From Siphonodentalium dalli (Eukaryota; Mollusca; Scaphopoda; Gadilida; Siphonodentaliidae): 64,000 nt of DNA. The translations under genes and the position numbers were made by a program. Positions 29,286-61,259 of this stretch are shown one piece after another. The DNA is taken from assembly GCA_032622095.1 (NCBI GenBank), contig CP136066.1, positions 9,445,784 to 9,509,783 on the forward strand. The letters are read 5' to 3'. How positions within the stretch are numbered: the first letter of the stretch is position 1; every line of letters begins with the position of its first letter. The notes under the pieces were generated by a model, which ran no database searches, had not been told where the DNA came from, and saw only the letters and a list, made by a program, of their open reading frames with translations.

Positions 29286-29440
29286 CTGCAATACAAATTC
29301 TCAAAGTCCCCTTCTAATCAAAATCGGAGTAGCTGGCAGCGACGGTTACATTAACTCAGTATTACGACCCTATGTCAATCAACTGTCAACCAAGAGTCCT
29401 GACTGGCAAACATACATCCGATTCCTCGTCATAACATTCG
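29286..29440 (+). CDS. PACS: PACS exon 1 of this window
   Basis: Acceptor 'attctgtttcag' ends at 29285 and donor CATTCG|gtaagt starts at 29441. The reading is CNTNSQSPLL, then KIGVAGSDGYINSVLRPYVN and KSPDWQTYIRFLVITF. This is the start of the conserved C-terminal block, containing the invariant-looking GxxGYINSVLRPYV and PDWxxYIRFLV segments. The exon begins with the last base of a split codon, so at least one upstream exon must exist. It ends in phase 1. Confidence 0.95.
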
Positions 29441-29760
29441 GTAAGTTATCCTAAAATCTATAATTAGTATCCGATTCCTCATCATAACATACAATAAGTT
29501 ATCCTAAAATTAACGTCTGATTTCTCGTTATAATATGCTGTAAGTTATCGAAAAATCTATAATTAGCATCCGATTCCTCGTCATGAAGTTTATGAAATTA
29601 TCCTAAAATTAACATCCGCTTCCTCGTTATAACATTCTGTAAGTTTTATGACAATTCTGATTCCTCGTTATAATATTCGGCAAGTTATTCTTATTTAAAG
29701 CAAATTTACATCTGATTCATCGTCAAAGTATTCATCATGTTTTATGACGATTCCTAAAAC
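29412..29760. repeat. Decayed tandem copies of the exon-1 5' splice boundary
   Basis: The exon end plus intron start ('atccgattcctcgtcataac' + 'attcg|gtaagttatcc') is followed by about six diverged copies at roughly 29468, 29515, 29568, 29614, 29653 and 29710. Some keep the GT (tgtaagtt, ctgtaagtt). Others have lost it (aataagtt, cggcaagtt). Unit length varies from about 40 to 57 bp. Confidence 0.82.
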
Positions 29761-29774
29761 ATAATTAAAGCAAA

Positions 29775-30176
29775 TCATATACCTTGTCATACAAAAAATC
29801 ATATTCTGTGTCATACATATAAATCATATTTCTGTGTCATACATATAAATCATATTCCGTGTCATACATATAAATCATATTCTGTGTCATACATATAAAT
29901 CATATTCTGTGTCATACATATAAATCATATTCCGTGTCATACATATAAATCATATTCTGTGTCATACATATAAATCATATTCCGTGTCATACATATAAAT
30001 CATATTCCGTGTCATACATATAAATCATATTCTGTGTCATACATATAAATCATATTCCGTGTCATACATATAAATCATATTCCGTGTCATACATATAAAT
30101 CATATTCTGTGTCATACATATAAATCATATTCTGTGTCATACATATAAATCATATTCCGTGTCATTAGTGTTCAAA
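29775..30176. repeat. 25-bp satellite, segment 1
   Basis: About 15 copies of the unit 'tcatacatataaatcatatt' plus 'c/t cgtg'. The same satellite resumes at 31259 and at 31790. The three segments are one array opened by two insertions. Confidence 0.95.
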
Positions 30177-31258
30177 CGACTCTGGGATTCTGGAGTCGAC
30201 TAGTCGAACACCAAAAGTCGAGTCGACGTCGACTAGTCGGCCAAATACATCACCAACCTTATACTAATGAAGCACATGTGAAAGAAAAATACAATTTCCG
30301 TGCCATCATCACACTATTTACACTCTACTGTGATCGGAGAATTGAATCACGTGACACGTCACGTGGTTTTGTTGCAAATGAACCGGTGCTCTAGAAACCC
30401 ACCGATCGCAAATAAGTTCCCTACGAATCTACGATGATAATGAGAATAAATAATTGAGGAAATAATTGAGGGATTTTCTGTTAATCATGAAATCAAATAA
30501 ATACTTCCCTGCCAGTGTATAGAAAATAAACGATACTCAGTCTCAGAGTCAGCTCAAAATAAAAAACAAAACAAAAGAAAACGTGCACACACACTGTACA
30601 TACTGTGTGACACACATTATAATTATTAATGATTATATATACGATGTGTACATAGGCCTACTTTGTAAGTTGCCATAACTTCCGTAAGGCGTACGTAGCA
30701 AGCAGAGAGTTAGACTCAGTTAGTGTCGACGAACACTTTTGTGGAAGCCCCTCCCTCTTTACCTGTGTTGGTTAGAAATGTGCACTACGAATTTTTGCGT
30801 CCGCGGTATAGGGAGTATGAAATGTGCGCGAGCGTAGAAACTAAATGACGCAATGCAAAGACCACGTGGCATTAACCTGGAACATGCGTGAGACGTCGGT
30901 CAAGTACGCCGCGACCTAATATTTACTGTTTATGGACCACGTACTTTTTAGAAGTCAAATATAGAGTTACTGCTCTTCTAATGATAATGGTTAACTTGAA
31001 TTATCGCATTGGCGAATTTCGGCGTAGTTCTATGTCAAGCTCGACATTAGGACATATGTTTGGACTTTGGAAAGCTTCTTGAACATAGACTAGCTATCTT
31101 TGCTGCTTTTCTGACCCACATTTAGTGAAACCATGCATTGTCAAGGCCAGCTGATGAGATTAGATACTGTATTTCGACTAGTCGACTGTGGAAGTTAGAG
31201 TCGATTACCTGAAAAACCAGCGTCGACGATTATTTGTCGACTAATCGTTTGAACACTA
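30177..31258. mobile_element. Non-autonomous hAT-like element inside the 25-bp satellite
   Basis: Terminal inverted repeats 'tagtgttcaaacga' and 'tcgtttgaacacta' are perfect over 14 bp. The satellite on both sides overlaps by 8 bp ('cgtgtcat'), which fits the 8-bp target duplication of hAT transposons. The subterminal DNA is full of 'gtcgactagtcg' motifs in both orientations. About 1.08 kb with no transposase ORF. The TSD reading is slightly weakened because the target itself is repetitive. Confidence 0.85.
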
Positions 31259-31476
31259 CGTGTCATACATATAAATCATATTCCGTGTCATACATATAAA
31301 TCATATTCCGTGTCATACATATAAATCATATTCTGTGTCATACATATAAATCATATTCTGTGTCATACATATAAATCATATTCCGTGTCATACATATAAA
31401 TCATATTCCGTGTCATACATATAAATCATATTCCGTGTCATACATATAAATCATATTCCGTGTCATACATATAAAT
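31259..31476. repeat. 25-bp satellite, segment 2
   Basis: Nine copies of the same 25-bp unit as at 29775-30176. They begin at exactly the phase expected if the element at 30177-31258 was inserted. Confidence 0.95.
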
Positions 31477-31789
31477 AGAGGATCTCAAACGAGTTACTAT
31501 TTTATACAGAATTTATCAACCGAGTTCACTAAATTCGATTTGAGCCGAGGTTTACCGAGGCTCAAATAGAATTTAGTGGACGAGGTTGATAAATTACGTA
31601 TAAAATAGAACGAGTTTGAGATACTTTTTATCACATGATCATATAATCGCTAAAATTTTATCGAAAAGAACAATAATTAACAGCCAGCGAACTTCGTCCC
31701 AAAGAGAAGCGTGACGTCATTGCACGCGATGATATTACACGTGTCTATTACGCTCGAATATTACATAGGAAAACAGTGCTAATCATGTG
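31477..31789. mobile_element. Second insertion in the satellite, foldback type
   Basis: Inverted phrases 'atctcaaacgagttactatt' and 'aatagaacgagtttgagat', with 'gaatttatcaaccgagttc' and 'gaggttgataaatt', form a long hairpin followed by about 160 bp of unique tail. The satellite stops at 'ataaat' and resumes at 'ataaatcat', so a short target duplication is possible. Confidence 0.75.
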
Positions 31790-31922
31790 ATAAATCATAT
31801 TCCGTGTCATACATATAAATCATAGTCTGTGTCATACATATAAATCATATTCTGTGTCATACATATAAATCGTATTCTGTGTCATACATATAAATCATAT
31901 TCCGTGTCATACATATAAATCA
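31790..31922. repeat. 25-bp satellite, segment 3
   Basis: Five copies completing the array that starts at 29775. Confidence 0.93.
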
Positions 31923-32262
31923 ATCCAATGTAATAAACAAATAAATTGAGTTGCTATGATGTTTATCTACTTAATTTCTTAACTATTTTATATTTAATGA
32001 CTATGGTGCTTCTCTCCGACTATGGATTGAGCTTAATTAGCTTTATCACTCTATAAGACATGTCTTTGTTGGAGTGACCTAATAGGTTGAAATCAATGCC
32101 ACATCCACGTTAACATTGTGTTTATGTGAGCAAGGTGCCCAATAAGTGTAATTCCTCTTGTGAACTTAATAGTAAGGTGTGAATTGTTGAAAGTTTTGCA
32201 CGCATGAAAAGGATAGTGTAAGGATTTATGAAAATAGCTCATCACTGTCGCCAAGGTATGGG
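31923..32262. other. Intronic sequence, unassigned
   Basis: Nothing recognised. Confidence 0.5.
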
Positions 32263-32708
32263 TTAACCCTTTCAGTGCCAGGGGCCGATCTCATCGGCCC
32301 TAATTTACGGTCTATAAATTCGGTCGTAAAAAAATTAAATTTTTTATAGATTTTTGTGGTTTAATTTATTTGGGGTATGCTTAAGCATGCTATGGCGAAT
32401 TTAAAAACAAACTGGATAAAACCTTAGGGGCATGTTATAACTCAAAACTATCACCAAGTATTCATAATAATAAGTTTGATCCCTTGCACTAAACCTACAA
32501 AATAAGTCTGGCACTGAAAGAGAGTAGAATATAAGAAAAAAAATATTAAAATTGTAAAAAATTGTAAAAAATAATGAAAAATTGTTAGGCCAATGCATTC
32601 TCTTATATATGCGAGGCGACCTATGGTCGACTCGCATATATAAGAGAATGCATTGGCACAGGGTATATGGGTTGATACAAATATCGGCCCTGGCACTCAA
32701 AGGGTTAA
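32263..32708. mobile_element. TTAA-ended element with one 65-bp palindrome
   Basis: Ends 'ttaaccctttcagtgccag' and 'ctggcactcaaagggttaa' are inverted with one mismatch, and TTAA is at both ends (piggyBac-type). The interior begins 'gggccgatctcatcggccct'. A palindrome at about 32588-32657 is the same sequence found in the different TTAA family at 32866-33265, so it moved independently. Confidence 0.8.
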
Positions 32709-32865
32709 ACATCCGCCAATCGTGATTGGCCTCTTGTTTTATTTTAAAGTGGCATATGTCTAACTCAAGATGTATCTCTTGTAATGCATGTCTCTTCAAA
32801 ATAAGTTTGAAATAAATTAATATATCAAGAAATTATCCTTAATGTAACTCTCATATTTTTTGCTT

Positions 32866-33265
32866 TTAACCCTTTACCCAACAAACCGCCCAAAACCGGC
32901 CAAGTAAAGCTTCAACAGCCTAAAATATCTTCGGTCTGTCTCAATAGAACCATACAAATATGGATATCATTGGAACCGGCTCCTTGACCACATTGTGATA
33001 GTTACAGTTATGCCCTGTGCCAATGCATTCTCTTATATATGCGAGTCGACCATAGGTCGCCTCGCATATATAAGAGAATGCATTGGCCTAAAAAAAATCT
33101 TTTTTAACACTTTTTACCATTTTTTTCTTACATTCTTTAACAATTTTATAATTTTTAATGTGTTAAGCCAATGCATTCTCTTATATATGCGAGGCGACCT
33201 ATGGTCGACTCGCATATATAAGAAAATGCATTGGCACAGGGCCCCTCTGTTGGGTAAAGGGTTAA
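32866..33265. mobile_element. TTAA-ended composite MITE with two palindromes (best copy)
   Basis: Starts 'ttaaccctttacccaacaaa' and ends 'tgttgggtaaagggttaa'. After about 140 bp of 'aaccggcc', 'aataaagcttcaaca'-like sequence it carries two palindromes of about 70 bp (33015-33087 and 33170-33239) in inverted orientation, separated by 'aacactttttaccatttttt' and similar AT-rich text. Flanking 'ccctgtg' and 'cacaggg' extend the inverted repeat. Confidence 0.85.
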
Positions 33266-33576
33266 TAAGGTGCATATAATAAAAAGAATACCTACAGTTT
33301 TATGTTTGAATTCCTGAAACATCTCATTTGATATTTCCTGTCCAGACACTCATGAGATATTTTGATATTCAAACAAAAAACTGCAGGTATTTTCTATGTA
33401 CGATATCTTCATAAGAGTTCTTATTTGTGAATTTATTCACTGGTTCATTGGCAAAATTCCAATAACATTCTATTCTTATTACGAATGCCGCATGTGGCTG
33501 ATTATCCTGCAACTCAAGTACAATTGCAAATTATTATGTGTCATAACTTGTGGAAATCACATCAAGTAAAACACAA
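33266..33576. other. Intronic sequence, unassigned
   Basis: No feature beyond AT-rich text. Confidence 0.5.
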
Positions 33577-36098
33577 ATTTCTGTCTCCACCATGGGTCTT
33601 ATATCTGTCTCCACCATGGGTCTTATTTCTGTCTCCACCATGGGGTCTTATTTCTGTCTCCACCATGGGTCTAATATCTGTCTCCACCATGGGGGTCTTA
33701 TATCTGTCTCCACCATGGGTCTTATATCTGTCTCCACCATGGGGTCTTATATCTGTCTCCACCATGGGTCTTATATCTGTCTCCACCATGGGGTCTTATA
33801 TCTGTCTCCACCATGGGGTCTTATATCTGTCTCCACCATGGGTCTTATATCTGTCTCCACCATGGGGTCTTATATCTGTCTCCACCATGGGGTCTTATAT
33901 CTGTCTCCACCATGGGTCTTATATCTGTCTCCACCATGGGGTCTTATATCTGTCTCCACCATGGGTCTTATATCTGTCTCCACCATGGGTCTTATATCTG
34001 TCTCCACCATGGGGTCTTATATCTGTCTCCACCATGGGGTCTTATATCTGTCTCCACCATGGGGTCTTATATCTGTCTCCACCATGGGTCTTATATCTGT
34101 CTCCACCATGGGGTCTTATATCTGTCTCCATCATGGGTCTTATATCTGTCTCCACCATGGGGTCTTATATCTGTCTCCACCATGGGTCTTATTTCTGTCT
34201 CCACCATGGGGTCTTATATCTGTCTCCACCATGGGTCTTATATCTGTCTCCACCATGGGTCTTATATCTGTCTCCACCATGGGTCTTATATCTGTCTCCA
34301 CCATGGGTCTTATATCTGTCTCCACCATGGGTCTTATATCTGTCTCCACCATGGGTCTTATATCTGTCTCCACCATGGTGTCTTATATCTGTCTCCACCA
34401 TGGGGTCTTATATCTGGTTCCACCATGGGTCTTATATCTGTCTCCACCATGGGTCTTATATCTGGTTCCACCATGGGTCTTATATCTGTCTCCACCATGG
34501 GTCTTATATCTGTCTCCACCATGGGTCTTATATCTGGTTCCACCATGGGGTCTTATATCAGTCTCCACCATAGGTCTTATATCTGTCTCCACCATGGGGT
34601 CTTATATCTGTCTCCACCATGGGTCTTATCAGTCTCCACCATGGGTCTTATATCTGTCTCCACCATGGGTCTAATATCTGTCTCCACCATGGGGTCTTAT
34701 ATCTGTCTCAACCATGGGGTCTTATATCTGTCTCCACCATGGGGTCTTATATCTGTCTCCACCATAGGTCTTATATCTGTCTCCACCATGGGTCTTATAT
34801 CTGTCTCCACCATGGGTCTAATATCTGTCTCCACCATGGGGTCTTATATCTGTCTCCACCATAGGGTCTTATATCTGTCTCCACCATAGGTGTTATATCT
34901 GTTTCCACCATGGGTCTTATATCTGTCTCCACCATGGGTCTTATATCTGTCTCCACCATGGGTCTTATATCTGTCTCCACCATGGGTCTTATATCTGTCT
35001 CCACCATGGGTCTTATATCTGTCTCCACCATGGTGTCTTATATCTGTCTCCACCATGGGTCTTATATCTGTCTCCACCATGGGTCTTATATCAGTCTCCA
35101 CCATGGGTCTTATATCTGTCTCCACCATGGGTCTTATATCAGTCTCCACCATGGTGTCTTATATCTGTCTCCACCATGGGTCTTATATCTGTCTCCACCA
35201 TGGGTCTTATATCAGTCTCCACCATGGGTCTTATATCTGTCTCCACCATGGGTCTTATATCTGTCTCCACCATGGTGTCTTATATCTGTCTCCACCATGG
35301 GTCTTATATCTGTCTCCACCATGGGTCTTATATCAGTCTCCACCATGGGTCTTATATCTGTCTCCACCATGGGTCTTATATCAGTCTCCACCATGGGTCT
35401 TATATCTGTCTCCACCATGGGTCTTATATCTGTCTCCACCATGGGTCTTATATCTGTCTCCACCATGGTGTCTAATATCTGTCTCCACCATGGTGTCTAA
35501 TATCTGTCTCCACCATGGTGTCTAATATCTGTCTCCACCATGGGGTCTTATATCTGTCTCCACCATGGTGTCTAATATCTGTCTCCACCATGGGGTCTTA
35601 TATCTGTCTCCACCATGGGGTCTTATATCTGTCTCCACCATGGTGTCTAATATCTGTCTCCACCATGGTGTCTAATATCTGTCTCCACCATGGTGTCTAA
35701 TATCTGTCTCCACCATGGGGTCTTATATCTGTCTCCACCATGGGGTCTTATATCTGTCTCCACCATGGTGTCTAATATCTGTCTCCACCATGGGGTCTTA
35801 TATCTGTCTCCACCATGGGGTCTTATATCTGTCTCCACCATGGTGTCTAATATCTGTCTCCACCATGGTGTCTAATATCTGTCTCCACCATGGTGTCTAA
35901 TATCTGTCTCCACCATGGGGTCTTATATCTGTCTCCACCATGGGGTCTTATATCTGTCTCCACCATGGTGTCTAATATCTGTCTCCACCATGGGGTCTTA
36001 TATCTGTCTCCACCATGGGGTCTTATATCTGTCTCCACCATGGGGTCTTATATCTGTCTCCACCATGGGGTCTTATATCTGTCTCCACCATGGGTCTT
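33577..36098. repeat. 24/25-bp satellite, about 103 copies
   Basis: Tandem units 'gtcttatatctgtctccacc' + 'atgg(g)'. The 24-bp form keeps frame and the 25-bp form (extra G, or GTG) shifts it, so long open frames appear on both strands in all phases. Variants such as 'tatcagtctcc', 'tatctggttcc' and 'taatatctg' form clusters; the right third (35450-36000) repeats a pattern of 'tgtctaat' and 'ggtcttat' units with a period of about 200 bp. It ends 40 bp before exon 2. Confidence 0.97.
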
Positions 36099-36139
36099 AT
36101 TTTTCCTGTGAATTAATATTTGTCGTCTTATATATTCAG

Positions 36140-36250
36140 GTTGTAGTTCGATTGGTAAACAATTAGCCAGCCTCGACTCAACATACTCATCTCTGTTCTA
36201 CGATAACCAGTGGAAGGAAATGTTTGAAAAATCAGACTCACCAAAGCTAG
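36140..36250 (+). CDS. PACS: PACS exon 2 of this window
   Basis: Acceptor 'tcttatatattcag' ends at 36139 and donor AAGCTAG|gtaag starts at 36251. Translation: CSSIGKQLASLDSTYSSLF, then YDNQWKEMFEKSDSPKL. It matches the PACS segment that follows the YIRFLV motif, including LxSxDxxYSSLF and a WxxxF helix. It enters in phase 1 and leaves in phase 1. Confidence 0.95.
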
Positions 36251-38595: not shown

Positions 38596-38698
38596 ATTCT
38601 CAAGAAATCATGACCAGAGTGTCGAAATACTTAATTAGTGCTAATCACATCGTTAATATCCCCATCGCTGAGGCTATGGTCATGCATAAAGGAAAGAG
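38596..38698 (+). CDS. PACS: PACS exon 3 of this window (first unit of the giant array)
   Basis: Acceptor 'caatttactttcag' ends at 38595 and donor AAAGAG|gttagt starts at 38699. Translation: DSQEIMTRVSKYLISANHI, then VNIPIAEAMVMHKGKR. It matches the PACS stretch containing IPIAEAM. It enters in phase 1 and leaves with two bases (AG) that pair with G of exon 4. The last 70 bases are also the first part of the 89-bp repeat unit that continues for 9.2 kb. Only this copy has the proper upstream 33 bases and polypyrimidine tract. Confidence 0.95.
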
Positions 38699-41600
38699 GT
38701 TAGTATCTGTTCATCATACTTAATTAGTGCTAATCACATCGTTAATATCCCCATCGCTGAGGCTATGGTCATGCATAAAGGAAAGAGGTTAGTATCTGTT
38801 CATCATACTTAATTAGTGCTAATCACATCGTTAATATCCCCATCGCTGAGGCTATGGTCATGCATAAAGGAAAGAGGTTAGTATCTGTTCATCAGTCTTA
38901 ATTAGTGCTAATCACATCGTTAATATCCCCATCGCTGAGGCTATGGTCATGCATAAAGGAAAGAGGTTAGTATCTGTTCATCATACTTAATTAGTGCTAA
39001 TCACATCGTTAATATCCCCATCGCTGAGGCTATGGTCATGCATAAAGGAAAGAGGTTAATAGTATCTGTTCATGATACTTAATTAGTGCTAATCACATCG
39101 TTAATATCCCCATCGCTGAGGCTATGGTCATGCATAAAGGAAAGAGGTTAGTATCTGTTCATCATACTTAATTAGTGCTAATCACATCGTTAATATCCCC
39201 ATCGCTGAGGCTATGGTCATGCATAAAGGAAAGAGGTTAGTATCTGTTCATGATACTTAATTAGTGCTAATCACATCGTTAATATCCCCATCGCTGAGGC
39301 TATGGTCATGCATAAAGGAAAGAGGTTAGTATCTGTTCATCATACTTAATTAGTGCTAATCACATCGTTAATATCCCCATCGCTGAGGCTATGGTCATGC
39401 ATAAAGGAAAGAGGTTAGTATCTGTTCATCATACTTAATTAGTGCTAATCACATCGTTAATATCCCCATAGCTGAGGCTATGGTCATGCATAAAGGAAAG
39501 AGGTTAGTATCTGTTCATCATACTTAGTTAGTGCTAATCACATCGTTAATATCCCCATAGCTGAGGCTATGGTCATGCATAAAGGAAAGAGGTTAGTATC
39601 TGTTCATTATACTTAATTAGTGCTAATCACCTCGTTAATATCCCCATAGCTGAGGCTATGGTCATGCATAAAGGAAAGAGGTTAGTATCTGTTCATCATA
39701 CTTAATTAGTGCTAATCACATCGTTAATATCCCAATCGCTGAGGCTATGGTCATGCATAAAGGAAAGAGGTTAGTATCTGTTCATTATACTTAATTAGTG
39801 CTAATTACATCGTTAATATCCCCATCGCTGAGGCTATGGTCATGCATAAAGGAAAGAGGTTAGTATCTGTTCATTATACTTAATTAGTGCTAATCACATC
39901 GTTAATATCCCCATAGATGAGGCTATGGTCATGTATAAAGGAAAGAGGTTAGTATCTGTTCATAATACTTAATTAGTGCTAATCACATCGTTAATATCCC
40001 CATCACTGAGGCTATGGTCATGCAGAAAGGAAAGAGGTTAGTATCTGTTCATTATACTTAATTAGTGCTAATCACATCGTTAATATCCCCATAGATGAGG
40101 CTATGGTCATGCATAAAGGAAAGAGGTTAGTATCTGTTCATTATACTTAATTAGTGCTAATCACATCGTTAATATCCCCATAGATGAGGCTATGGTCATG
40201 CATAAAGGAAAGAGGTTAGTATCTGTTCATAATACTTAATTAGTGCTAATCACATCGTTAATATCCCCATCGCTGAGGCTATGGTCATGCATAAAGGAAA
40301 GAGGTTAGTATCTGTTCATCATACTTAATTAGTGCTAATTACATCGTTAATATCCCCATCGCTGAGGCTATGGTCATGCATAAAGGAAAGAGGTTAGTAT
40401 CTGTTCATCATACTTAATTAGTGCTAATCACATCGTTAATATCCCCATCGCTGAGGCTATGGTCATGCAGAAAGGAAAGAGGTTAGTATCTGTTCATCAT
40501 ACTTAGTTAGTGCTAATCACATCGTTAATATCCCCATAGCTGAGGCTATGGTCATGCATAAAGGAAAGAGGTTAGTATCTGTTCATCATACTTAATTAGT
40601 GCTAATCACATCGTTAATATCCCCATCGCTGAGGCTATGGTCATGCATAAAGGAAAGAGGTTAGTATCTGTTCATCATACTTAATTAGTGCTAATCACAT
40701 CGTTAATATCCCCATAGCTGAGGCTATGGTCATGCATAAAGGAAAGAGGTTAGTATCTGTTCATCATATTAATTAGTGCTAATCACATCGTTAATATCCC
40801 CATCGCTGAGGCTATGGTCATGCATAAAGGAAAGAGGTTAGTATCTGTTCATCATACTAGTGCTAATCACATCGTTAATATCCCCATCGCTGAGGCTATG
40901 GTCATGCATAAAGGAAAGAGGTTAGTATCTGTTCATACTTAATTAGTGCTAATCACATCGTTAATATCCCCATAGCTGAGGCTATGGTCATGCATAAAGG
41001 AAAGAGGTTAGTATCTGTTCATCATACTAGTGCTAATCACATCGTTAATATCCCCATCGCTGAGGCTATGGTCATGCATAAAGGAAAGAGGTTAGTATCT
41101 GTTCATCATACTTAATTAGTGCTAATCACATCGTTAATATCCCCATCGCTGAGGCTATGGTCATGCATAAAGGAAAGAGGTTAGTATCTGTTCATCATAC
41201 TTAATTAGTGCTAATCACATCGTTAATATCCCCATAGCTGAGGCTATGGTCATGCATAAAGGAAAGAGGTTAGTATCTGTTCATCATACTAGTGCTAATC
41301 ACATCGTTAATATCCCCATCGCTGAGGCTATGGTCATGCATAAAGGAAAGAGGTTAGTATCTGTTCATCATACTTAATTAGTGCTAATCACATCGTTAAT
41401 ATCCCCATCGCTGAGGCTATGGTCATGCATAAAGGAAAGAGGTTAGTATCTGTTCATCATACTTAATTAGTGCTAATCACATCGTTAATATCCCCATAGA
41501 TGAGGCTATGGTCATGCATAAAGGAAAGAGGTTAGTATCTGTTCATCAGTCTTAATTAGTGCTAATCACATCGTTAATATCCCCATCGCTGAAGCTATGG

Positions 41601-44600
41601 TCATGCATAAAGGAAAGAGGTTAGTATCTGTTCATCATACTTAATTAGTGCTAATCACATCGTTAATATCCCCATCGCTGAGGCTATGGTCATGCATAAA
41701 GGAAAGAGGTTAGTATCTGTACATCATACTTAATTAGTGCTAATCACATCGTTAATATCCCCATCGCTGAGGCTATGGTCATGTATAAAGGAAAGAGGTT
41801 AGTATCTGTTCATCATACTTAATTAGTGCTAATCACATCGTTAATATCCCCATCGCTGAGGCTATGGTCATGCATAAAGGAAAGAGGTTAGTATCTGTTC
41901 ATCATACTTAATTAGTGCTAATCACATCGTTAATATCCCCATCGCTGAGGCTATGGTCATGTATAAAGGAAAGAGGTTAGTATCTGTTCATCATACTTAA
42001 TTAGTGCTAATCACATCGTTAATATCCCCCTCGCGAGGCTATGGTCATGCATAAAGGAAAGAGGTTAGTATCTGTTCATAATACTTAATTAGTGCTAATC
42101 ACATCGTTAATATCCCCATCGCTGAGGCTATGGTCATGCAGAAAGGAAAGAGGTTAGTATCTGTTCATCATACTTAATTAGTGCTAATCACATCGTTAAT
42201 ATCCCCATAGATGAGGCTATGGTCATGCATAAAGGAAAGAGGTTAGTATCTGTTCATCATATTAATTAGTGCTAATCACATCGTTAATATCCGCATAGCT
42301 GAGGCTATGGTCATGCATAAAGGAAAGAGGTTAGTATCTGTTCATCATACTTAGTTAGTGCTAATCACATCGTTAATATCCCCATAGCTGAGGCTATGGT
42401 CATGCATAAAGGAAAGAGGTTAGTATCTGTTCATCATACTTAATTAGTGCTAATCACATCGTTAATATCCCCATAGATGAGGCTATGGTCATGCATAAAG
42501 GAAAGAGGTTAGTATCTGTTCATCATACTTAATTAGTGCTAATCACATCATTAATATCCCCATCGCTGAGGCTATGGTCATGCATAAAGGAAAGAGGTTA
42601 GTGTCTGTTCATCATACTTAATTAGTGCTAATCACATCGTTAATATTCCCATCGCTGAGGCTATGGTCATGCATAAAGGAAAGAGGTTAGTATCTGTTCA
42701 TTATACTTAATTAGTGCTAATCACATCGTTAATATCCCCATCGCTGAGGCTATGGTCATGCATAAAGGAAAGAGGTTAGTATCTGTTCATCATACTTAAT
42801 TAGTGCTAATCACATCGTTAATATCCCCATCGCTGAGGCTATGGTCATGCATAAAGGAAAGAGGTTAGTATCTGTTCATTATACTTAATTAGTGCTAATT
42901 ACATCGTTAATATCCGCATAGCTGAGGCTATGGTCATGCATAAAGGAAAGAGGTTAGTGTCTGTTCATCATACTTAATTAGTGCTAATCACATCGTTAAT
43001 ATCCCCATCGCGAGGCTATGGTCATGCATAAAGGAAAGAGGTTAGTATCTGTTCATCATACTTAATTAGTGCTAATCACATCGTTAATATCCCCATCGCT
43101 GAGGCTATGGTCATGCATAAAGGAAAGAGGTTAGTGTCTGTTCATCATACTTAATTAGTGCTAATCACATCGTTAATATCCCCATCGCGAGGCTATGGTC
43201 ATGCATAAAGGAAAGAGGTTAGTATCTGTTCATCATACTTAATTAGTGCTAATCACATCGTTAATATCCCCATCGCTGAGGCTATGGTCATGCATAAAGG
43301 AAAGAGGTTAGTGTCTGTTCATCATACTTAATTAGTGCTAATCACATCGTTAATATCCCCATCGCTGAGGCTATGGTCATGCATAAAGGAAAGAGGTTAG
43401 TATCTGTTCATCATACTTAATTAGTGCTAATCACATCGTTAATATCCCCATCGCTGAGGCTATGGTCATGCATAAAGGAAAGAGGTTAGTATCTGTTCAT
43501 CATACTTAATTAGTGCTAATCACATCGTTAATATCCCCATCGCTGAGGCTATGGTCATGCATAAAGGAAAGAGGTTAGTATCTGTTCATCATACTTAATT
43601 AGTGCTAATCACATCGTTAATATCCCCATAGCTGAGGCTATGGTCATGCATAAAGGAAAGAGGTTAGTATCTGTTCATGATACTTAATTAGTGCTAATCA
43701 CATCGTTAATATCCCCATCGCTGAGGCTATGGTCATGCATAAAGGAAAGAGGTTAGTATCTGTTCATCATACTTAATTAGTGCTAATCACATCGTTAATA
43801 TCCCCATCGCTGAGGCTATGGTCATGCATAAAGGAAAGAGGTTAGTATCTGTTCATCATATTAATTAGTGCTAATCACATCGTTAATATCCCCATCGCTG
43901 AGGCTATGGTCATGCATAAAGGAAAGAGGTTAGTATCTGTTCATCATATTAATTAGTGCTAATCACATCGTTAATATCCCCATCGCTGAGGCTATGGTCA
44001 TGCATAAAGGAAAGAGGTTAGTATCTGTTCATCATACTTAATTAGTGCTAATCACATCGTTAATATCCCCATCGCTGAGGCTATGGTCATGCATAAAGGA
44101 AAGAGGTTAGTATCTGTTCATCATATTAATTAGTGCTAATCACATCGTTAATATCCCCATCGCTGAGGCTATGGTCATGCATAAAGGAAAGAGGTTAGTA
44201 TCTGTTCATCATACTTAATTAGTGCTAATCACATCGTTAATATCCCCATCGCTGAGGCTATGGTCATGCATAAAGGAAAGAGGTTAGTATCTGTTTATCA
44301 TACTTAATTAGTGCTAATCACATCGTTAATATCCCCATCGCTGAGGCTATGGTCATGCATAAAGGAAAGAGGTTAGTATCTGTTTATCATACTTAATTAG
44401 TGCTAATCACATCGTTAATATCCCCATCGCTGAGGCTATGGTCATGCATAAAGGAAAGAGGTCGGTATCTGTTTATCATACTTAATTAGTGCTAATCACA
44501 TCGTTAATATCCCCATCGCTGAGGCTATGGTCATGCATAAAGGAAAGAGGTTAGTATCTGTTTATCATACTTAATTAGTGCTAATCACATCGTTAATATT

Positions 44601-47600
44601 CCCATCGCTGAGGCTATGGTCATGCATAAAGGAAAGAGGTTAGTATCTGTTCATCATACTTAATTAGTGCTAATCACATCGTTAATATCCCCATCGCTGA
44701 GGCTATGGTCATGCATAAAGGAAAGAGGTTAGTATCTGTTCATAATACTTAATTAGTGCTAATCACATCGTTAATATCCCCATCGCTGAGGCTATGGTCA
44801 TGCATAAAGGAAAGAGGTTAGTATCTGTTCATCATACTTAATTAGTGCTAATCACATCGTTAATATCCCCATCGCTGAGGCTATGGTCATGCATAAAGGA
44901 AAGAGGTTAGTATCTGTTCATCATACTTAATTAGTGCTAATCACATCGTTAATATCCCCATCGCTGAGGCTATGGTCATGCATAAAGGAAAGAGGTTAGT
45001 ATCTGTTCATAATACTTAATTAGTGCTAATTATATCGTTAATATCCCCATCGCTGAGGCTATGGTCATGTATAAAGGAAAGAGGTTAGTATCTGTTCATC
45101 ATACTTAATTAGTGCTAATCACATCGTTAATATCCCCATAGCTGAGGCTATGGTCATGTATAAAGGAAAGAGGTTAGTATCTGTTCATAATACTTAATTA
45201 GTGCTAATCACATCGTTAATATCCCCATCGCTGAGGCTATGGTCATGCATAAAGGAAAGAGGTTAGTATCTGTACATCATACTTAATTAGTGCTAATCAC
45301 ATCGTTAATATCCCCATCGCTGAGGCTATGGTCATGCATAAAGGAAAGAGGTTAGTATCTGTTCATCATACTTAATTAGTGCTAATCACATCGTTAATAT
45401 CCCCATCGCTGAGGCTATGGTCATGCATAAAGGAAAGAGGTTAGTATCTGTTCATCATACTTAATTAGTGCTAATCACATCGTTAATATCCCCATAGCTG
45501 AGGCTATGGTCATGCATAAAGGAAAGAGGTTAGTATCTGTTCATCATACTTAATTAGTGCTAATCACATCGTTAATATCCCCATAGCTGAGGCTATGGTC
45601 ATGCATAAAGGAAAGAGGTTAGTATCTGTTCATCATATTTAATTAGTGCTAATCACATCGTTAATATCCCCATCACTGAGGCTATGGTCATGCATAAAGG
45701 AAAGAGGTTAGTATCTGTTCATGATACTTAATTAGTGCTAATCACATCGTTAATATCCCCATAGATGTGGCTATGGTCATGCATAAAGGAAAGAGGTTAG
45801 TATCTGTTCATGATACTTAATTAGTGCTAATCACATCGTTAATATCCCCATCGCTGAGGCTATGGTCATGCATAAAGGAAAGAGGTTAGTATCTGTACAT
45901 CATACTTAATTAGTGCTAATCACATCGTTAATATCCCCATCGCTGAGGCTATGGTCATGCATAAAGGAAAGAGGTTAGTATCTGTTCATCATACTCAATT
46001 AGTGCTAATCACATCGTTAATATCCCCATCGCTGAGGCTATGGTCATGCATAAAGGAAAGAGGTTAGTATATGTTCATCATACTTAATTAGTGCTAATCA
46101 CATCGTTAATATCCCCATCGCTGAGGCTATGGTCATGCATAAAGGAAAGAGGTTAGTATCTGTTCATCATACTTAATTAGTGCTAATCACATCGTTAATA
46201 TCCCCATCGCTGAGGCTATGGTCATGCATAAAGGAAAGAGGTTAGTATCTGTTCATCATACTTAATTAGTGCTAATCACATCGTTAATATCCCCATCGCT
46301 GAGGCTATGGTCATGTATAAAGGAAAGAGGTTAGTATCTGTACATCATACTTAATTAGTGCTAATCACATCGTTAATATCCCCATAGCTGAGGCTATGGT
46401 CATGCATAAAGGAAAGAGGTTAGTATCTGTTCATCATATTAATTAGTGCTAATCACATCGTTAATATCCCCATCGCTGAGGCTATGGTCATGCATAAAGG
46501 AAAGAGGTTAGTATCTGTTCATCATACTTAATTAGTGCTAATCACATCGTTAATATCCCCATTGCTGAGGCTATGGTCATGTATAAAGGAAAGAGGTTAG
46601 TATCTGTTCATCATACTTAATTAGTGCTAATCACATCGTTAATATCCCCATAGCTGAGGCTATGGTCATGCATAAAGGAAAGAGGTTAGTATCTGTTCAT
46701 CATACTTAATTAGTGCTAATCACATCGTTAATATCCCCATCGCTGAGGCTATGGTCATGCATAAAGGAAAGAGGTTAGTATCTGTTCATAATACTTAATT
46801 AGTGCTAATCACATCGTTAATATCCCCATCGCTGAGGCTATGGTCATGCATAAAGGAAAGAGGTTAGTATATGTTCATCATACTTAATTAGTGCTAATCA
46901 CATCGTTAATATCCCCATAGCTGAGGCTATGGTCATGCATAAAGGAAAGAGGTTAGTATCTGTTCATCATACTTAATTAGTGCTAATCACATCGTTAATA
47001 TCCCCATCGCTGAGGCTATGGTCATGTATAAAGGAAAGAGGTTAGTATCTGTTCATCATACTTAATTAGTGCTAATCACATCGTTAATATCCCCATCGCT
47101 GAGGCTATGGTCATGTATAAAGGAAAGAGGTTAGTATCTGTACATCATACTTAATTAGTGCTAATCACATCGTTAATATCCCCATCGCTGAGGCTATGGT
47201 CATGCATAAAGGAAAGAGGTTAGTATCTGTACATCATACTTAATTAGTGCTAATCACATCGTTAATATCCCCATCGCTGAGGCTATGGTCATGCATAAAG
47301 GAAAGAGGTTAGTATCTGTTCATCATACTTAATTAGTGCTAATCACATCGTTAATATCCCCATCGCTGAGGCTATGGTCATGCATAAAGGAAAGAGGTTA
47401 GTATCTGTTCATCATACTTAATTAGTGCTAATCACATCGTTAATATCCCCATCGCTGAGGCTATGGTCATGCATAAAGGAAAGAGGTTAGTATATGTTCA
47501 TCATACTTAATTAGTGCTAATCACATCGTTAATATCCCCATCGCTGAGGCTATGGTCATGTATAAAGGAAAGAGGTTAGTATCTGTTCATCATATTAATT

Positions 47601-47860
47601 AGTGCTAATCACATCGTTAATATCCCCATCGCTGAGGCTATGGTCATGCATAAAGGAAAGAGGTTAGTATCTGTTCATCATACTTAATTAGTGCTAATCA
47701 CATCGTTAATATCCCCATAGCTGAGGCTATGGTCATGTATAAAGGAAAGAGGTTAGTATCTGTTCATCATATTAATTAGTGCTAATCACATCGTTAATAT
47801 CCCCATCGCTGAGGCTATGGTCATGCATAAAGGAAAGAGGTTAGTATCTGTTCATCATAC
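38629..47860. repeat. 89-bp exon-derived satellite, about 104 copies
   Basis: Each unit equals the last 70 bases of PACS exon 3 ('acttaattagtgctaatcac' through 'ataaaggaaagag') plus 19 intron bases ('gttagtatctgttcatcat'). Every unit therefore repeats a complete 5' splice site. Units are very similar. Common variants are cgctgagg/agctgagg/agatgagg, tgcataaa/tgtataaa, tca|tca versus tta, and short deletions (catactagtg, catattaatt, atcgcgagg). The left end is the genuine exon. The right end abuts a hAT-like MITE end ('caaaccttgaaatag') at 47862. Confidence 0.98.
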
Positions 47861-47861
47861 T

Positions 47862-49379: not shown

Positions 49380-50182
49380 GAATAGAAAAATGTTAAAACC
49401 AACCAATTCAATGTTTCATGGAAAAATGTTAAAACCAACCAATTCAATGTTTCATGGAAAAATCTTAAAACCAACCAATTCAATGTTTCATGGAAAAATG
49501 TTAAAACCAACCAATTCAATGTTTCATGGAAAAATCTTAAAACCAACCAATTCAATGTTTCATGGAAAAATCTTAAAACCAAACAATTCAATGTTTCATG
49601 GGAAAATCTTAAAACCAACCAATTCAATGTTTCATGGAAAAATCTTAAAACCAACCAATTCAATGTTTCATGGAAAAATGTTAAAACCAACCAATTCAAT
49701 GTTTCATGGAAAAATCTTAAAACCAACCAATTCAATGTTTCATGGAAAAATCTTAAAACCAACCAATTCAATGTTTCATGGAAAAATCTTAAAACCAAAC
49801 AATTCAATGTTTCATGGAAAAATCTTAAAACCAACCAATTCAATGTTTCATGGAAAAATCTTAAAACCAACCAATTCAATGTTTCATGGAAAAATCTTAA
49901 AACCAAACAATTCAATGTTTCATGGAAAAATGTTAAAACCAACCAATTCAATGTTTCATGGAAAAATCTTAAAACCAACCAATTCAATGTTTCATGGAAA
50001 AATGTTAAAACCAACCAATTCAATGTTTCATGGAAAAATGTTAAAACCAACCAATTCAATGTTTCATGGAAAAATGTTAAAACCAACCAATTCAATGTTT
50101 CATGGAAAAATGTTAAAACCAAACAATTTAATGTTTCATGGAAAAATCTTAAAACCAAACAATTCAATGTTTCATGGAAATG
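49380..50182. repeat. 36-bp satellite, about 22 copies
   Basis: Units 'aaaatcttaaaaccaaccaa' + 'ttcaatgtttcatgga' with C/G (atctt/atgtt) and ccaacc/ccaaac variants. Since 36 is a multiple of 3 and the unit lacks stops in one frame on each strand, long reading frames of 12-residue repeats appear in both directions. They are not genes: they overlap perfectly as antisense pairs and lie within PACS intron 3, ending 38 bp before exon 4. Confidence 0.97.
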
Positions 50183-50220: not shown

Positions 50221-50263
50221 GACTGATGAAGAGTCTACACAAGTGTTCGTCCCATTCATTAGC
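50221..50263 (+). CDS. PACS: PACS exon 4 of this window (43-bp mini-exon)
   Basis: Acceptor 'tgactgtatttatag' ends at 50220 and donor ATTAGC|gtgagt starts at 50264. It completes AGG (Arg) and reads TDEESTQVFVPFIS, matching the PACS DEES...F(I/V)PF motif. It enters after two bases and ends in phase 0. Confidence 0.93.
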
Positions 50264-52745: not shown

Positions 52746-52838
52746 GCAGGCTTGTAGACAGTGAAATATGTGTTAGTTACAGATGGGTAGTTTTTGCAAA
52801 TCCACTTTGACCATCATTTGCCCAATTTTGTTTTTCAG

Positions 52839-52878
52839 GAAGTCAAGATTGGTATGCCAGAATCATTAAACTCATCAG
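52839..52878 (+). CDS. PACS: PACS exon 5 of this window (40-bp mini-exon)
   Basis: Acceptor 'aattttgtttttcag' ends at 52838 and donor TCATCAG|gtaag starts at 52879. It reads EVKIGMPESLNSS plus one base, matching the PACS 'VKVGIVE' segment that follows the FVPF motif. Two consecutive mini-exons in this position agree with one another by phase. Confidence 0.92.
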
Positions 52879-55579: not shown

Positions 55580-55739
55580 TTGATATGGAAGAGAATGTGT
55601 CGTCACCAACCTTGTCTAGTTCCCCCCCATCGTCATCAAACCTTGCAGAAAAACTCAACGAGAAACTCATCGAGAAACCAAAGGAACACAGCACACCTCC
55701 AAGTTCTCCACAAGTCTCTGGTGCTGCACCCATGTCAGG
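55580..55739 (+). CDS. PACS: PACS exon 6 of this window (Ser/Pro-rich linker)
   Basis: Acceptor 'attggtatattacag' ends at 55579 and donor TCAGG|gtatgt starts at 55740. It reads VDMEENVSSPTLSSSPPSSS, then KLNEKLIEKPKEHSTPPSS and PQVSGAAPMS. It is a low-complexity serine/proline/lysine linker in the place where PACS proteins have a Ser/Pro-rich variable region. Six Ser-Pro or Thr-Pro type sites are potential phosphorylation sites, by inference only. Confidence 0.93.
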
Positions 55740-55865
55740 GTATGTACTATAGCCTAGATACTCGGGTATTTCTCCTAGATAACCGGGTATATACTATAGC
55801 CTAGATACTCAGGTATGTCTCCTAGATACCCGTGTATGTACTATACCCGAGATACCCAGGTATTA
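55736..55865. repeat. Decayed tandem copies of the exon-6 5' splice boundary
   Basis: The donor text 'cagggtatgtactatagcct' + 'agatactcgg' recurs as 'gggtatttctcctagataac', 'cgggtatatactatagccta', 'caggtatgtctcctagatac' and 'cgtgtatgtactatacc'. The same minisatellite continues at 56757-56880, split by a TIR element. Several copies keep GTATGT. Confidence 0.8.
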
Positions 55866-56754: not shown

Positions 56755-56756
56755 TA

Positions 56757-57454: not shown

Positions 57455-57598
57455 ATCTACAACTCGTCCCCAGTTTATAGCGGAAATTACAAAACTCGTC
57501 CAGTAAATTAGGTCTGGACCTCGCCAAAGGCTCGGTCTAGACCTAATTTACTGGACTCGTCCAGTAAATTCCGCTATAAACTGGGGACTCTATTTGTC
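57455..57598. mobile_element. Foldback element
   Basis: Arms 'ccccagtttatagcggaaat' and 'attccgctataaactgggga', then inner 'cagtaaattaggtctggacc' and 'ggtctagacctaatttactg'. The loop is near 'tcgccaaaggctcgg'. Nearly perfect hairpin. Confidence 0.88.
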
Positions 57599-57989
57599 TA
57601 ATTTATCTCTGCCTTTGTAGTTGACAGACTGCAGGCATTTGATGGTATAAAGACTCGAGTGTTTATAATAAACACAACAGTCAACTGTTCTGAGTAACAT
57701 ACATGTTTTCTCCTCTTGCAAGATGCGAGGATTATCTTCACTCGCCTAGTGCCGTGTAAAAATAAACCTCCGCATCTCACTCAAGGAGTTCTAGACTATT
57801 GTCTATTTATATCTCTTGGAGCATAGAGACTGCAGTTAGTTTGATGGTACAGAGCCCGTCGTCTGAGTAATAATAACTGATTCTATTTATATCTCGTTGT
57901 GGGTATACAGACTGCAGTGAGTTTGATGGTACAGAGCCCTCGTTGGAGTTATAGTAATTATAATTAATTCTATTTATATCTCTTTGTAG
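57599..57989. repeat. Three diverged copies of the exon-7 3' splice boundary
   Basis: Copies at about 57599-57660, 57803-57880 and 57881-57968 precede the true exon-7 boundary. Each shows 'tatttatatctc', the acceptor region, 'agactgca' and 'gtttgatggtacagagccc'. In copy 1 the acceptor is still 'ctttgtag' but leads directly into TGA. In copy 2 it is 'cttggag' (poor -3 base). In copy 3 the AG has become GG ('gttgtgg'). Confidence 0.82.
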
Positions 57990-58234
57990 CGTACAGACTG
58001 CAGGCAGTTTGATGGTACAGAGCCCGTCGTCGGAGTACATGGATTTACAGGTGGAGTATTGGATCGGCCCTGGCAGGCTCCAGGGTATCGATAAAGAGAG
58101 AAGCGGCAAGAAAGACTCTAATAAAAACTCTATGAAAACGACGTTTCGTTCTCTCTTTGTTGGTCGTTCACTCAATAGTTCGGAACCGCATTTATTCTCA
58201 ATGGTTGTTGTTACGCGGGAGAAGAAACAGAAAA
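57990..58234 (+). CDS. PACS: PACS exon 7 of this window
   Basis: Acceptor 'tatatctctttgtag' ends at 57989 and donor CAGAAAA|gtaagt starts at 58235. Translation: VQTAGSLMVQSPSSEYMDLQ, then VEYWIGPGRLQG, KKDSNKNSMKTTFRSLFVG and FSMVVVTREKKQK. It matches PACS at LQVxYW, the KKD basic stretch, TFRSL and MxVVTxEKxxK. This acceptor was chosen over the nearer 'actgcag' at 58003 because only 57990 keeps the codon split with exon 6 (GG + C). Confidence 0.95.
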
Positions 58235-58332
58235 GTAAGTTTAAACACCGCACTGAATATTCAAATGGTTATCTAGCCAACCAATATCGTGATTTGGTGT
58301 ATTGATTAACATTCTGTTTTTATAAATGGCTT

Positions 58333-58548
58333 ACAGTAATGCTCTAAGTTATCGACCTCTTAACCACAGCAGAATTATGGGTAACTTTTCAGGATTTAGT
58401 CGGAAATATAACTTGTTGCCATTCATCGGAAAGCTCTCGGGGAGAGCTTTCCGATGAATGGCAACAAGCCATATTTCCGACTAAATCCTGAAAAGTTACC
58501 CATAATTCTGCTGTGGTTAAGAGGTCGATTACTTAGAGCATTACTGTA
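58333..58548. mobile_element. 210-bp near-perfect palindromic MITE, copy 2
   Basis: Starts 'acagtaatgctctaagttat' and ends 'attacttagagcattactgt'. The two halves match over about 100 bp, with the centre at 'gctctcggggagagc'. Same family as 53610-53818 and the partial copy at 63904-64000. Confidence 0.92.
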
Positions 58549-58884
58549 TATTCAGTTTTTGTGCTTACCATTTTATTGATGACTTATGAAAACAATGGTA
58601 GCAAAGCTCACCTTACAAACGGGCCCAGAGTATTTTACTGTCCATTATTATTTTGTTCCCGTTCATTTATTTCTTCCCCGCACAAACATTCAAACCGACT
58701 GACGTATCTGCTTCACCTCTGCACTCCCGGTATTTACATATTGCTGTCCAAGAGCAATAACTATATCTCTCTCCATCACAAAGTCTCTCCAATAACCAAT
58801 TGCTATCCAAGAGCAGTAACTCTATCTCTCTAATTACAGACAGTAGGTTACAAACACCTAATTATTTTCCATAGGCGACAGTGT

Positions 58885-59640
58885 TAACTAGAAGTCCCGC
58901 CGGTCATGGGTTAAGCCTATTTGAACTTCAAGTGGTCAATTTTCCCTTAGAACGTCATCTGCTGCACCAGTCAGTATTACAATGTAGAAAATGCAGTTGA
59001 CAGGTTGACAGTCACAGTGTTCAGAATCTGATTCAACAAGTGATTGTTTCAAAGCACATCATCCCACACCCATGTACATTTACAAGAGAGGATATACATG
59101 TACTGTGTGCACCAGTGTAATTCACAAGAGATTCATGGCAAACATGGCATGATGATGATCCATGGTCTCACTTCATTCAGACGTCAGTGCTGTGTTGACT
59201 ATTGTGACTTAGTATCAAAACACTGGCACATTTACTGACACTGGGAATACAGGTACAATTAACACGGGCTTCGCTGTCAACCAATAGTGACAATAATAGC
59301 AACAACAACAACAGACAACACCCTTTTCGTTATTTTTTTTATGCGATAATCTTGAATTTCCACAACTACCCCATTTACTGCACAAAAATCAGCAGCATAA
59401 AAATACCCAGATTCCTTACATAACTTTGGGACCCCACCAGACTCTTTCTGGACATCTAAACATGCATGATCGCCATATTTATTATGATTTTCTGTTCCCG
59501 CTTAGGGTTATTTCCCTCAATGATAATCAACCAATCAGCAGGCAGATTTTTTTTTATCTGACTCGAGTTTCCCTACACAATTTCAAGAAGCGTAACTCTA
59601 TATAATTAGTTGCTTGTAACCCATAATCAACATGTAGTTA
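58885..59640. repeat. Dispersed repeat, copy 2, with internal insertion
   Basis: The + strand matches the minus strand of 953-1348. Homology runs 58895-58972 ('gccggtcatgggttaagcct'...'ctgctgcaccagtc') and about 59320-59640 ('ccacaactaccccatttact', 'accagactctttctggacat', 'gataatcaaccaatcagcag'). Between them are about 340 bp absent from copy 1, so this copy has an insertion or copy 1 a deletion. Confidence 0.72.
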
Positions 59641-59837
59641 GCAACATTATTTTGTTTTAAATCTGAACTCTTGGGCTGAGTATCTGATATTTTTGTGACA
59701 TTGTGATGCGTAGCACGAGGCAGAACTGTGAATTAAGGCCACTTTTTCTATTTCTACGCACAGCTCTAAGAAGCCCCAAAGCAGTCTCACTAAATAAATT
59801 AAACATAAGATGATAAAACAAAATTTAATTTGTTTGC

Positions 59838-60110
59838 CAGTAATGTGACTATTTTTTGTAGTAATGTGACTATTTTTTGTAGTAATGTGACTATTTTTTG
59901 TAGTAATGAGACTATTTTTTGTAGTAATGTGACTATTTTATGTGGTAATGTGACTATTTTTTGTAGTAATGTGACTATTTTTTGTAGTAATGAGACTATT
60001 TTTTATAGTAATGTGACTATTTTTTGTAGTAATGAGACTATTTTATGTAGTAATGAGACTATTTTATGAAGTAATGAGACTATTTTATGTAGTAATGAGA
60101 CTATTTTTTG
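59838..60110. repeat. 21-bp minisatellite of 3' splice sites, 13 copies
   Basis: Thirteen exact-period units ('tagtaatgtgactatttttt' + 'g') begin at 59838 and run directly into exon 8, whose own boundary is the fourteenth occurrence. Each unit supplies a T-rich tract, (t/a)AG and the first exon bases TAATG. Units differ mainly in gtgac/gagac: the former puts TGA in the exon-8 frame, the latter leaves it open. Units 10-13 (from 60027) are all open. Unit 6 has tGG, so it lacks the acceptor AG. Confidence 0.96.
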
Positions 60111-60113
60111 TAG

Positions 60114-60221
60114 TAATGAGACTAGGAAAGAAAGCCAAAGAGTCTGAATCAAAAAGTCAGATCATAGACGGGATCAGTCGGCTCATCTGTACGTCAAGAA
60201 GTCAGAATTTTCCCCTCAAAG
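60114..60221 (+). CDS. PACS: PACS exon 8 of this window
   Basis: Acceptor 'gactattttttgtag' ends at 60113 and donor CTCAAAG|gtatgt starts at 60222. It completes ATA and reads MRLGKKAKESESKSQIIDGI, then SRLICTSRSQNFPLK, matching PACS KKAK..ESKSQ.I.GISRLICT. The last of the tandem acceptors is chosen because it gives the length seen in the family. Upstream acceptors at 60029, 60050, 60071 and 60092 are 21 bases apart and also in frame. Confidence 0.94.
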
Positions 60222-60955
60222 GTATGTCAAAAAGTTATATCGAGAGTGAACATTGATTACCGTCGTAAACGGTACAAGAGACACTCGCGTATACAATTGT
60301 ATAACACATCAGATTATAGTGATTTAGTCTTTAGTTACAGTGTTGACTTTGTTGCCCATTGGTGCGCGAATTTAAAACTGAGCGAAAAGTACGACTCCCA
60401 AGTTTAATCTAAACCACAGTCCATATGAAATAAAAGAGTGCTCTGTTGCACAGTTTATTATGAACGGTTGAATAGACAATTACGCCTATACATAGATGCA
60501 TATATTTACATTCGGCTAACCGCTATTAAGACCATTGCTCACAATTCAAGTGACAAATCATGGTAACATGTACATTGTTGAAATGCTTGTATAAGAAAAA
60601 TGCTAATACTCCAGGTCGCCACAAAATTATCATGTATGTAGTGACTGTTACGATGTAAATCTGCCGCGATGGTGTTTAATATACACATATATTATCTACA
60701 ACAATGACTAAGAGCCGAAACTGTCCTCAATTCCAAGATATACGAAAATATCACAGAAATAATACGAAAATAGTTTTCTCAGTTTTGAATTCGCGCAGCT
60801 AGGTGGGCGAATTTAAAGTGCGCGAAATCAAAACTGAGCAAAAAATAGTACTGCGAGGATTTAAATACAATTAAGGTAGTTGTAATGGATTGTACACAAA
60901 GTTAATGATGTCATCCACATCAGAATCCCCATGTCGTTTCTGAAGGCCTTTATAA
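60222..60955. other. Intron 8, unassigned
   Basis: No recognised gene or repeat. 'gcgcgaatttaaaactgagc' (60363) and 'gggcgaatttaaagtgcgcg' (60807) are weakly similar. Confidence 0.5.
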
Positions 60956-60957
60956 AT

Positions 60958-61140
60958 TGCAGTGTGTCTGGACGGTGTAGAATGATTTTCTCATGTTATT
61001 TTGATCTCGTTTCGGTGTAGAATGATTTTCTCATGTTATTTCGGTCTCGTTTCGGTGTAGAATGATTTGCTCATGTTATTTTGATCTCATTTTGGTGTAG
61101 AATGATTTTCTCATGTTATTTTGATCTCTTCTCATTTCAG
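60958..61140. repeat. 40-bp tandem copies of the exon-9 3' boundary
   Basis: Starting with 'tgcagtgtgtctggacggtg' (a near copy of the true acceptor and exon start), four 40-bp units carry 'ggtgtagaatgattttctca' + 'tgttattttgatctcgtttc'. The true exon repeats 'gtgtggacggtgtagaatgg' at 61143. Later units have 'tttcgg' or 'ttttgg' where the acceptor AG would be, so they lack it. Confidence 0.88.
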
Positions 61141-61259
61141 TATGTGTGGACGGTGTAGAATGGTCTGGTGTTAAGTTCTTCCAACTGTCATCTCAATGGC
61201 AGACACATCTGAAGCATTTCCCTGTGGCATCATTCTGTGTGGCGGAGTCGTTGTGCTGA
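61141..61259 (+). CDS. PACS: PACS exon 9 of this window, with stop codon
   Basis: Acceptor 'atctcttctcatttcag' ends at 61140. Translation: [20 protein letters not shown], then [18 protein letters not shown] and TGA at 61257-61259. The first part matches the PACS terminus (DGVEW..VKFFQL..QW..H.KHFP). After KHFPVASF the last nine residues do not match the usual family end and lie inside a tandem repeat (61228-61400), so the C-terminus appears rewritten. Confidence 0.93.

Follow-up and report, generated by a model that had tools for sequence, protein, structure and literature searches.

Minisatellite-like tandem duplications of exon edges in a PACS gene of the scaphopod Siphonodentalium dalli

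A window of 64,000 nucleotides (nt) from the scaphopod mollusc Siphonodentalium dalli (GenBank assembly GCA_032622095.1, 2.23 Gb in 9 contigs; contig CP136066.1, C6:9445784-9509783) contains the final nine exons of a molluscan PACS gene (29286-61259), and several edges of these exons have been copied into tandem arrays within the adjoining introns. These arrays are a known kind of structure, the "mirage" minisatellites of exon-intron boundaries in amphioxus, now found in a new phylum and with an extreme copy number. They are probably mirage-type minisatellites produced by ordinary local tandem duplication and not by a process directed at splice sites.

The nine PACS exons of the original prediction are confirmed: spliced one after another, they form a single open reading frame for the C-terminal part of PACS with a stop codon at its end, and the spliced product matched the PACS-1 family of Pfam (PF10254, E 7.7e-112). 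In a tree of 27 PACS proteins the window copy was placed inside the molluscan clade (support 95/98), with Solemya as its weak sister (87/77). A relative of solved structure was sought by sequence and none was found (best E 0.52).

Tandem arrays and their copy numbers were listed with Tandem Repeats Finder (TRF). Each boundary was tested by aligning a 40-mer (30 exon and 10 intron bases) to 200 nt of intron with a cut-off score of ≥28, and in a second test the array unit was aligned to the exons and compared with 300 shuffles. The window contained 36 merged TRF arrays, and tandem repeats covered 49% of the region 28,900-61,400 versus 7.8% of the sequence upstream of it. With the 40-mer test, exon sequence was found to recur in the adjoining intron at 4 of the 17 PACS boundaries, two of the eight donors and two of the nine acceptors. 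At the exon 3 donor (score 80, 0/300 shuffles) an 89-bp unit, composed of the terminal 72 nt of exon 3 and the donor-bearing first 17 nt of intron 3, is present in 104.1 copies by TRF, confirming the approximately 104 copies originally counted. The duplications claimed for the exon 1 donor (score 53, unit of about 52/99 bp) and the exon 7 acceptor (score 64, 82-bp unit, 2.8 copies) were also borne out, each with 0/300 shuffles. The claim for the exon 9 acceptor held in part: the 40-bp unit (3.9 copies) gave a score of 43 and its consensus, which does not contain the tttcag acceptor, has 12 nt or more in common with the exon start, but the relation was weaker in the shuffle test (12/300).

Boundary duplications had been assigned to eight of the nine exons, which goes beyond what the two tests support. 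At the exon 6 donor and the exon 8 acceptor the arrays do abut the boundary, but their units are essentially intronic: that of exon 6 consists of two exon bases and the intron start (1/300 shuffles, 40-mer score 20), and that of exon 8 is an intronic 21-bp unit in 13.6 copies that stops one base before the exon (score 18). The copies reported for the donors of exons 2 and 5 are weak, with a score of 18 for exon 2, where a short AT-rich 12-bp repeat begins 29 nt inside the intron, and of 27 for exon 5 (21 nt with 4 mismatches). The supportable tally is four boundaries with exon-derived units and two that are merely abutted. Four arrays were absent from the original list: one begins directly past the stop codon and shows a relation to the coding end of exon 9 (0/300 shuffles), and three terminate 28-40 nt upstream of the exon 1, 2 and 4 acceptors. 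The 25-bp array of intron 1, considered as a derivative of the exon 1 end, was not significant (51/300 shuffles), and the same held against shuffles for an exon origin of the 24-, 36-, 26-, 37-, 29- (intron 2), 161- and 88-bp arrays.

A second PACS locus was found 2.57 Mb from the window copy (G000:C6:6863000-6912999, L009-L013). The nine exons are 99.4-100% identical between the two loci and larger matches reach 93-99%, whereas the arrays differ in length. The 89-bp unit occurs in 104 copies in the window versus about 20 at the second locus, the 21-bp unit in 13.6 versus 34.6, the 26-bp unit in 9.4 versus 18.4, the 24-bp unit in 103 versus 129, and the 36-bp unit in 22.1 versus 19.1; the 40-, 82- and 29-bp arrays are equally long at both. 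TRF does not list the 25-bp arrays found in intron 1 at the second locus, and it lists a 37-bp array (36 copies) there only. As array lengths vary between loci with nearly unchanged exons, the arrays appear to be local and unstable and the exons fixed. When the genome was searched for the 89-bp unit, at least 125 matches were obtained, made up of the 104 copies of the window, 20 of the second PACS locus and one 38-bp fragment; this near-confinement to the two loci fits a local origin. The fragment (G000:C2:114897154-114897191, on another contig) stands isolated and matches perfectly the end of exon 3, its donor and the start of the intron.

The length differences were seen between two near-identical loci that are either alleles or paralogues. 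An upstream PACS exon was found only at the second locus (6.86 Mb) and at C6:2486367, and not upstream of the window copy, which suggests that the second locus is an unpurged haplotype or the product of a misjoin. The window contains a run of 100 N at 18342-18441, the usual sign of a scaffold join, and some other genes likewise occur as close pairs in the assembly. Taken together, the N run, the distribution of the upstream exon and the other gene pairs favor unpurged haplotypes.

The inner copies of the 89-bp unit are well preserved at their splice site. The donor nine-mer is intact in 96 of the 98 copies (of about 104) that could be aligned without gaps, and none of these 98 contains an in-frame stop in its exonic part. 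The distinct exonic-part variants of both loci comprise 17 replacements, 7 silent changes and 1 stop (P = 0.48); they look neutral, as expected without selection. Coding selection on the copies was considered and rejected, because a raw excess at third positions was gone once each distinct variant was counted once. There were 18 variants over 17 intronic sites versus 25 over 72 exonic sites, an apparent excess from which nothing is concluded, as the intronic variants lie partly at unit ends, where the ungapped register slips.

A comparison of splice sites with intronic positions had been proposed beforehand, together with the idea that boundary duplication may be a property of the organism at large. 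The comparison was run in the same genome on a sample of three unrelated families, not on the whole genome, with 50 of 53 chaperonin, 20 of 85 myosin and 20 of 30 adaptin matches fetched as loci. After removal of near-duplicates (six chaperonin loci and one myosin locus) and of L014 and L015, which contain long open frames, 81 loci yielded 145 usable boundaries; their splice sites came from a simple purpose-made prediction score instead of an annotation, and weak predicted scores led to the exclusion of 17 of 162 boundaries. A same-strand copy of the boundary 40-mer was present at 11 of the 145 boundaries (7.6%; 5/73 donors and 6/72 acceptors), a count biased upward by one because the donor of L051 was placed by hand after its duplication was known. 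The boundary-spanning duplications are those of L038, L034, L046, L051, L070, L020, L035, L049, L087, L088 and L097. They are clear by eye in L038 (39-bp unit, at least 3 copies), L034, L046, L070 and L020; L097 has a 72-bp array across an acceptor, and L087 and L088 are supported by score and TRF alone. Thus, the property reaches beyond PACS, and to that extent the proposal is supported.

An excess over introns was not obtained. Local copies were found at 993 of 11,420 intronic control positions (8.7%), giving a ratio of 0.87 for boundaries over intronic positions (bootstrap interval 0.43-1.45), and with arrays collapsed at 701 of 10,883 positions, giving a ratio of 1.18 (0.57-1.97, P = 0.33), so that no enrichment was detected against either control. 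By family, the values were 7/72 boundaries versus 878/9,360 intronic positions for chaperonins, 1/35 versus 57/1,200 for myosins, and 3/38 versus 58/860 for adaptins. Along the exon-intron axis no donor peak was found at the junction, with 5/73 at -20, 4/73 at 0 and up to 9/73 deeper in the intron, and array edges in the sampled genes were no nearer to boundaries than expected (6 observed versus 5.5-7.5). An early version of the test with a reach of 600 nt agreed (donors 3/37 and acceptors 3/35; controls 171/1,492 and 148/1,320). As the boundary rate does not exceed the intronic rate, a special junction process is unsupported, and the pattern looks like a general repeat-proneness of this genome with nothing special to splice sites.

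Several results weigh against this interpretation. In PACS, arrays overlap 4/17 boundaries versus 0.75-0.85 expected (P 0.005-0.009), and under a uniform model, with distance cut-offs set after the distances were known, array edges lie within 12 nt of 6/17 boundaries versus 0.9-1.1 expected (P 5e-5 to 5.5e-4) and within 45 nt of 10/17 versus 1.2-1.7 expected (0/20,000 draws). Among PACS intronic 40-mers, 683 of 1,346 (51%) have a local copy, which is above the boundary rate of 4/17, but once every array is reduced to a single unit this control falls to 178 of 2,765 (6.4%), and 4/17 against that background gives P = 0.02. In the sampled genes, acceptors were slightly highest just inside the exon (6/72 versus 1 to 5/72 elsewhere), adaptin acceptors alone gave 3/20 versus 26/430 in the control, and the intervals, reaching 1.45 (raw) and 1.97 (collapsed), are compatible with a modest junction excess. 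PACS is an unusually repeat-rich gene and was selected because of the pattern it shows, and where half of the intron sequence is repeat, arrays may be truncated by the exons themselves. PACS gives a weak hint of clustering beyond background. Repeat-prone genes like PACS might constitute a hot class whose arrays are anchored at exon edges above background, for example by transcription-linked instability, an idea that we regard as tentative and rather unlikely.

Under the preferred reading of ordinary local tandem duplication, several PACS edges were hit because the introns of this gene are unusually repeat-rich. Duplication, frequent wherever this genome was sampled, would sometimes take in an exon edge, and the additional copies would land on the intron side. 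Selection would retain the copy attached to the remainder of its exon, and the other copies would expand, shrink and decay like an ordinary minisatellite, with slippage or unequal exchange as the probable engine and splicing presumably at the first donor or the last acceptor.

The original prediction had instead suggested for the arrays a common process that seeds repeats at junctions, by slippage, in an R-loop-linked manner or by template switching from partly spliced RNA. The crowding of array edges around PACS boundaries and the unit sizes differing from one boundary to the next would fit such a process, but the ratio of 0.87, the flat donor profile and the array edges at expected distances in the other genes do not bear it out; in addition, the exon 3 unit contains an unspliced exon-intron junction, although units were not searched for exon-exon joins. 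We therefore consider a junction-directed origin improbable. It is still less probable that the copies were retained because repeated splice sites or intron length regulate PACS splicing. The intact donor nine-mers and the missing in-frame stops would be expected in that case, but a young homogenized array would likewise show low divergence, the distinct exonic variants, one of them a stop, fit the absence of selection, and the two PACS loci differ five-fold in copy number.

That the arrays were inflated or misjoined during assembly would accord with the N run in the window and with the twofold occurrence of PACS and some other genes, which suggests unpurged haplotypes. Most units are, however, common to both PACS loci at the same places, and the short two-copy cases in other genes require no assembly of long arrays, making such an artefact highly improbable. 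Several arrays have no significant relation to an exon and by eye interspersed repeats are abundant in the region, as might be anticipated if the arrays were cargo of mobile elements with a minisatellite core. Exon-derived units match the adjoining exon of their own gene, though, and the 89-bp unit is confined to the two PACS loci except for the 38-bp fragment, and we judge this the least probable of the explanations considered. The coordinates of the PACS exons, the arrays and other features of the window are given in Table 1.

Table 1. Positions of PACS exons, tandem arrays and further repeats in the window
Feature	Position	Strand	Evidence or remark
PACS exon 1 of the window	29286..29440	+	spliced frame; tblastn
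PACS exon 2	36140..36250	+	spliced frame
PACS exon 3	38596..38698	+	spliced frame
PACS exon 4	50221..50263	+	spliced frame
PACS exon 5	52839..52878	+	spliced frame; weak lone diverged copy past donor
PACS exon 6	55580..55739	+	spliced frame
PACS exon 7	58004..58234	+	spliced frame
PACS exon 8	60126..60221	+	spliced frame; acceptor call uncertain, low score
PACS exon 9 including stop codon	61141..61259	+	spliced frame
Array spanning exon 1 donor, units of exon end and intron start	29414..29645	+	TRF; shuffles; score
25-bp array, intron 1	29772..30165	+	further blocks 31259-31476, 31790-31922
24-bp array, 103 copies, stops 39 nt upstream of exon 2	33580..36100	+	TRF
89-bp array, about 104 copies	38627..47861	+	TRF; unit alignment; genome search
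36-bp array, stops 40 nt upstream of exon 4	49385..50180	+	TRF
Array at exon 6 donor	55738..55864	+	TRF; shuffles; 40-mer
82-bp array spanning exon 7 acceptor, unit of acceptor and about 33 nt of exon	57802..58036	+	TRF; shuffles; 40-mer
21-bp array abutting exon 8 acceptor	59839..60124	+	TRF; shuffles
40-bp array ahead of exon 9	60973..61135	+	TRF; shuffles 12/300; score 43
29-bp array past stop codon	61264..61367	+	TRF; shuffles 0/300
LINE-like reverse-transcriptase frames	12225-14054 and 16157-18037	minus	
Palindromic unit	about 21915, 22062, 32590, 33020, 33170, 48310, 48480, 49020, 63095, 63395		by eye

Two further kinds of repeat were observed in the window. The region 10200-18040 contains two blocks in direct orientation that are near-identical by eye, each with a reverse-transcriptase frame resembling those of long interspersed nuclear elements (LINE); the first frame showed 42-52% identity among the best 120 of 7,994 relatives. 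On visual inspection, a palindromic unit of approximately 80 bp (CCAATGCATTCTCTTATATATGCGAG...) was seen to recur, frequently in pairs; it resembles a small inverted-repeat transposon.

Mirages, as described in the accessible text of the amphioxus reports, are minisatellite-like tandem duplications of exon-intron boundaries that were named in Adh3 and later found in the globins BflGb6 and BflGb9, troponin C and PGBD5; their unit length is variable, both boundary types are affected, lengths differ between haplotypes, and splicing is apparently undisturbed (PMC3087553, PMC3902484). The S. dalli arrays share with them, as far as that text goes, tandem units that span a donor or acceptor, unit lengths that vary among genes, and the involvement of several genes. 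Units containing both exon edge and splice site are present at the exon 1 and exon 3 donors and the exon 7 acceptor, and both 5' and 3' boundaries are affected in PACS as well as in other sampled genes. The variation in copy number described between amphioxus haplotypes may have its counterpart in the differences seen here between two near-identical loci. In contrast to the amphioxus cases, the host is a mollusc and not a cephalochordate, which is not a mechanistic requirement, and the about 104 copies compare with 3 and 6 given for BflGb6 in the accessible text. Again relative to that text, several boundaries of a single gene are involved, and an intronic control was measured, without a junction excess. 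In the literature covered, i.e. titles and abstract openings with most subscription journals outside the coverage, no molluscan, lophotrochozoan or bivalve mirages were found.

Ordinary intronic minisatellites are unstable in length and have homogenized units. The PACS arrays resemble them in both respects, with length instability seen between the two copies of the gene, but differ in that coding sequence lies inside the units at four boundaries. Intron gain by tandem genomic duplication has been described, in the accessible portions of the reports, for potato RdRp (PMC4974935) and Drosophila (PMC2891723). It likewise involves a tandem duplication that lies within or at an exon and is linked to splice sites; unlike the cases outlined there, existing introns were enlarged in PACS and no sign of a new intron was seen.

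With these findings, the range of boundary minisatellites widens from amphioxus to include a mollusc, and their frequency is compared with a background rate, which makes them countable. The results suggest that frequent duplication of exon edges can be harmless if the copies fall on the intron side. The exon 3 array provides a natural test of splice-site choice, with about 100 near-identical donors sharing their upstream context in one intron that exists in two length versions. Under the tentative idea of a hot class, and if the sample holds, roughly 1 in 13 splice boundaries of the S. dalli genome would carry duplicated exon-edge sequence, which would give the genome a constant source of decoy splice sites and new exons, of an origin independent of that in amphioxus.

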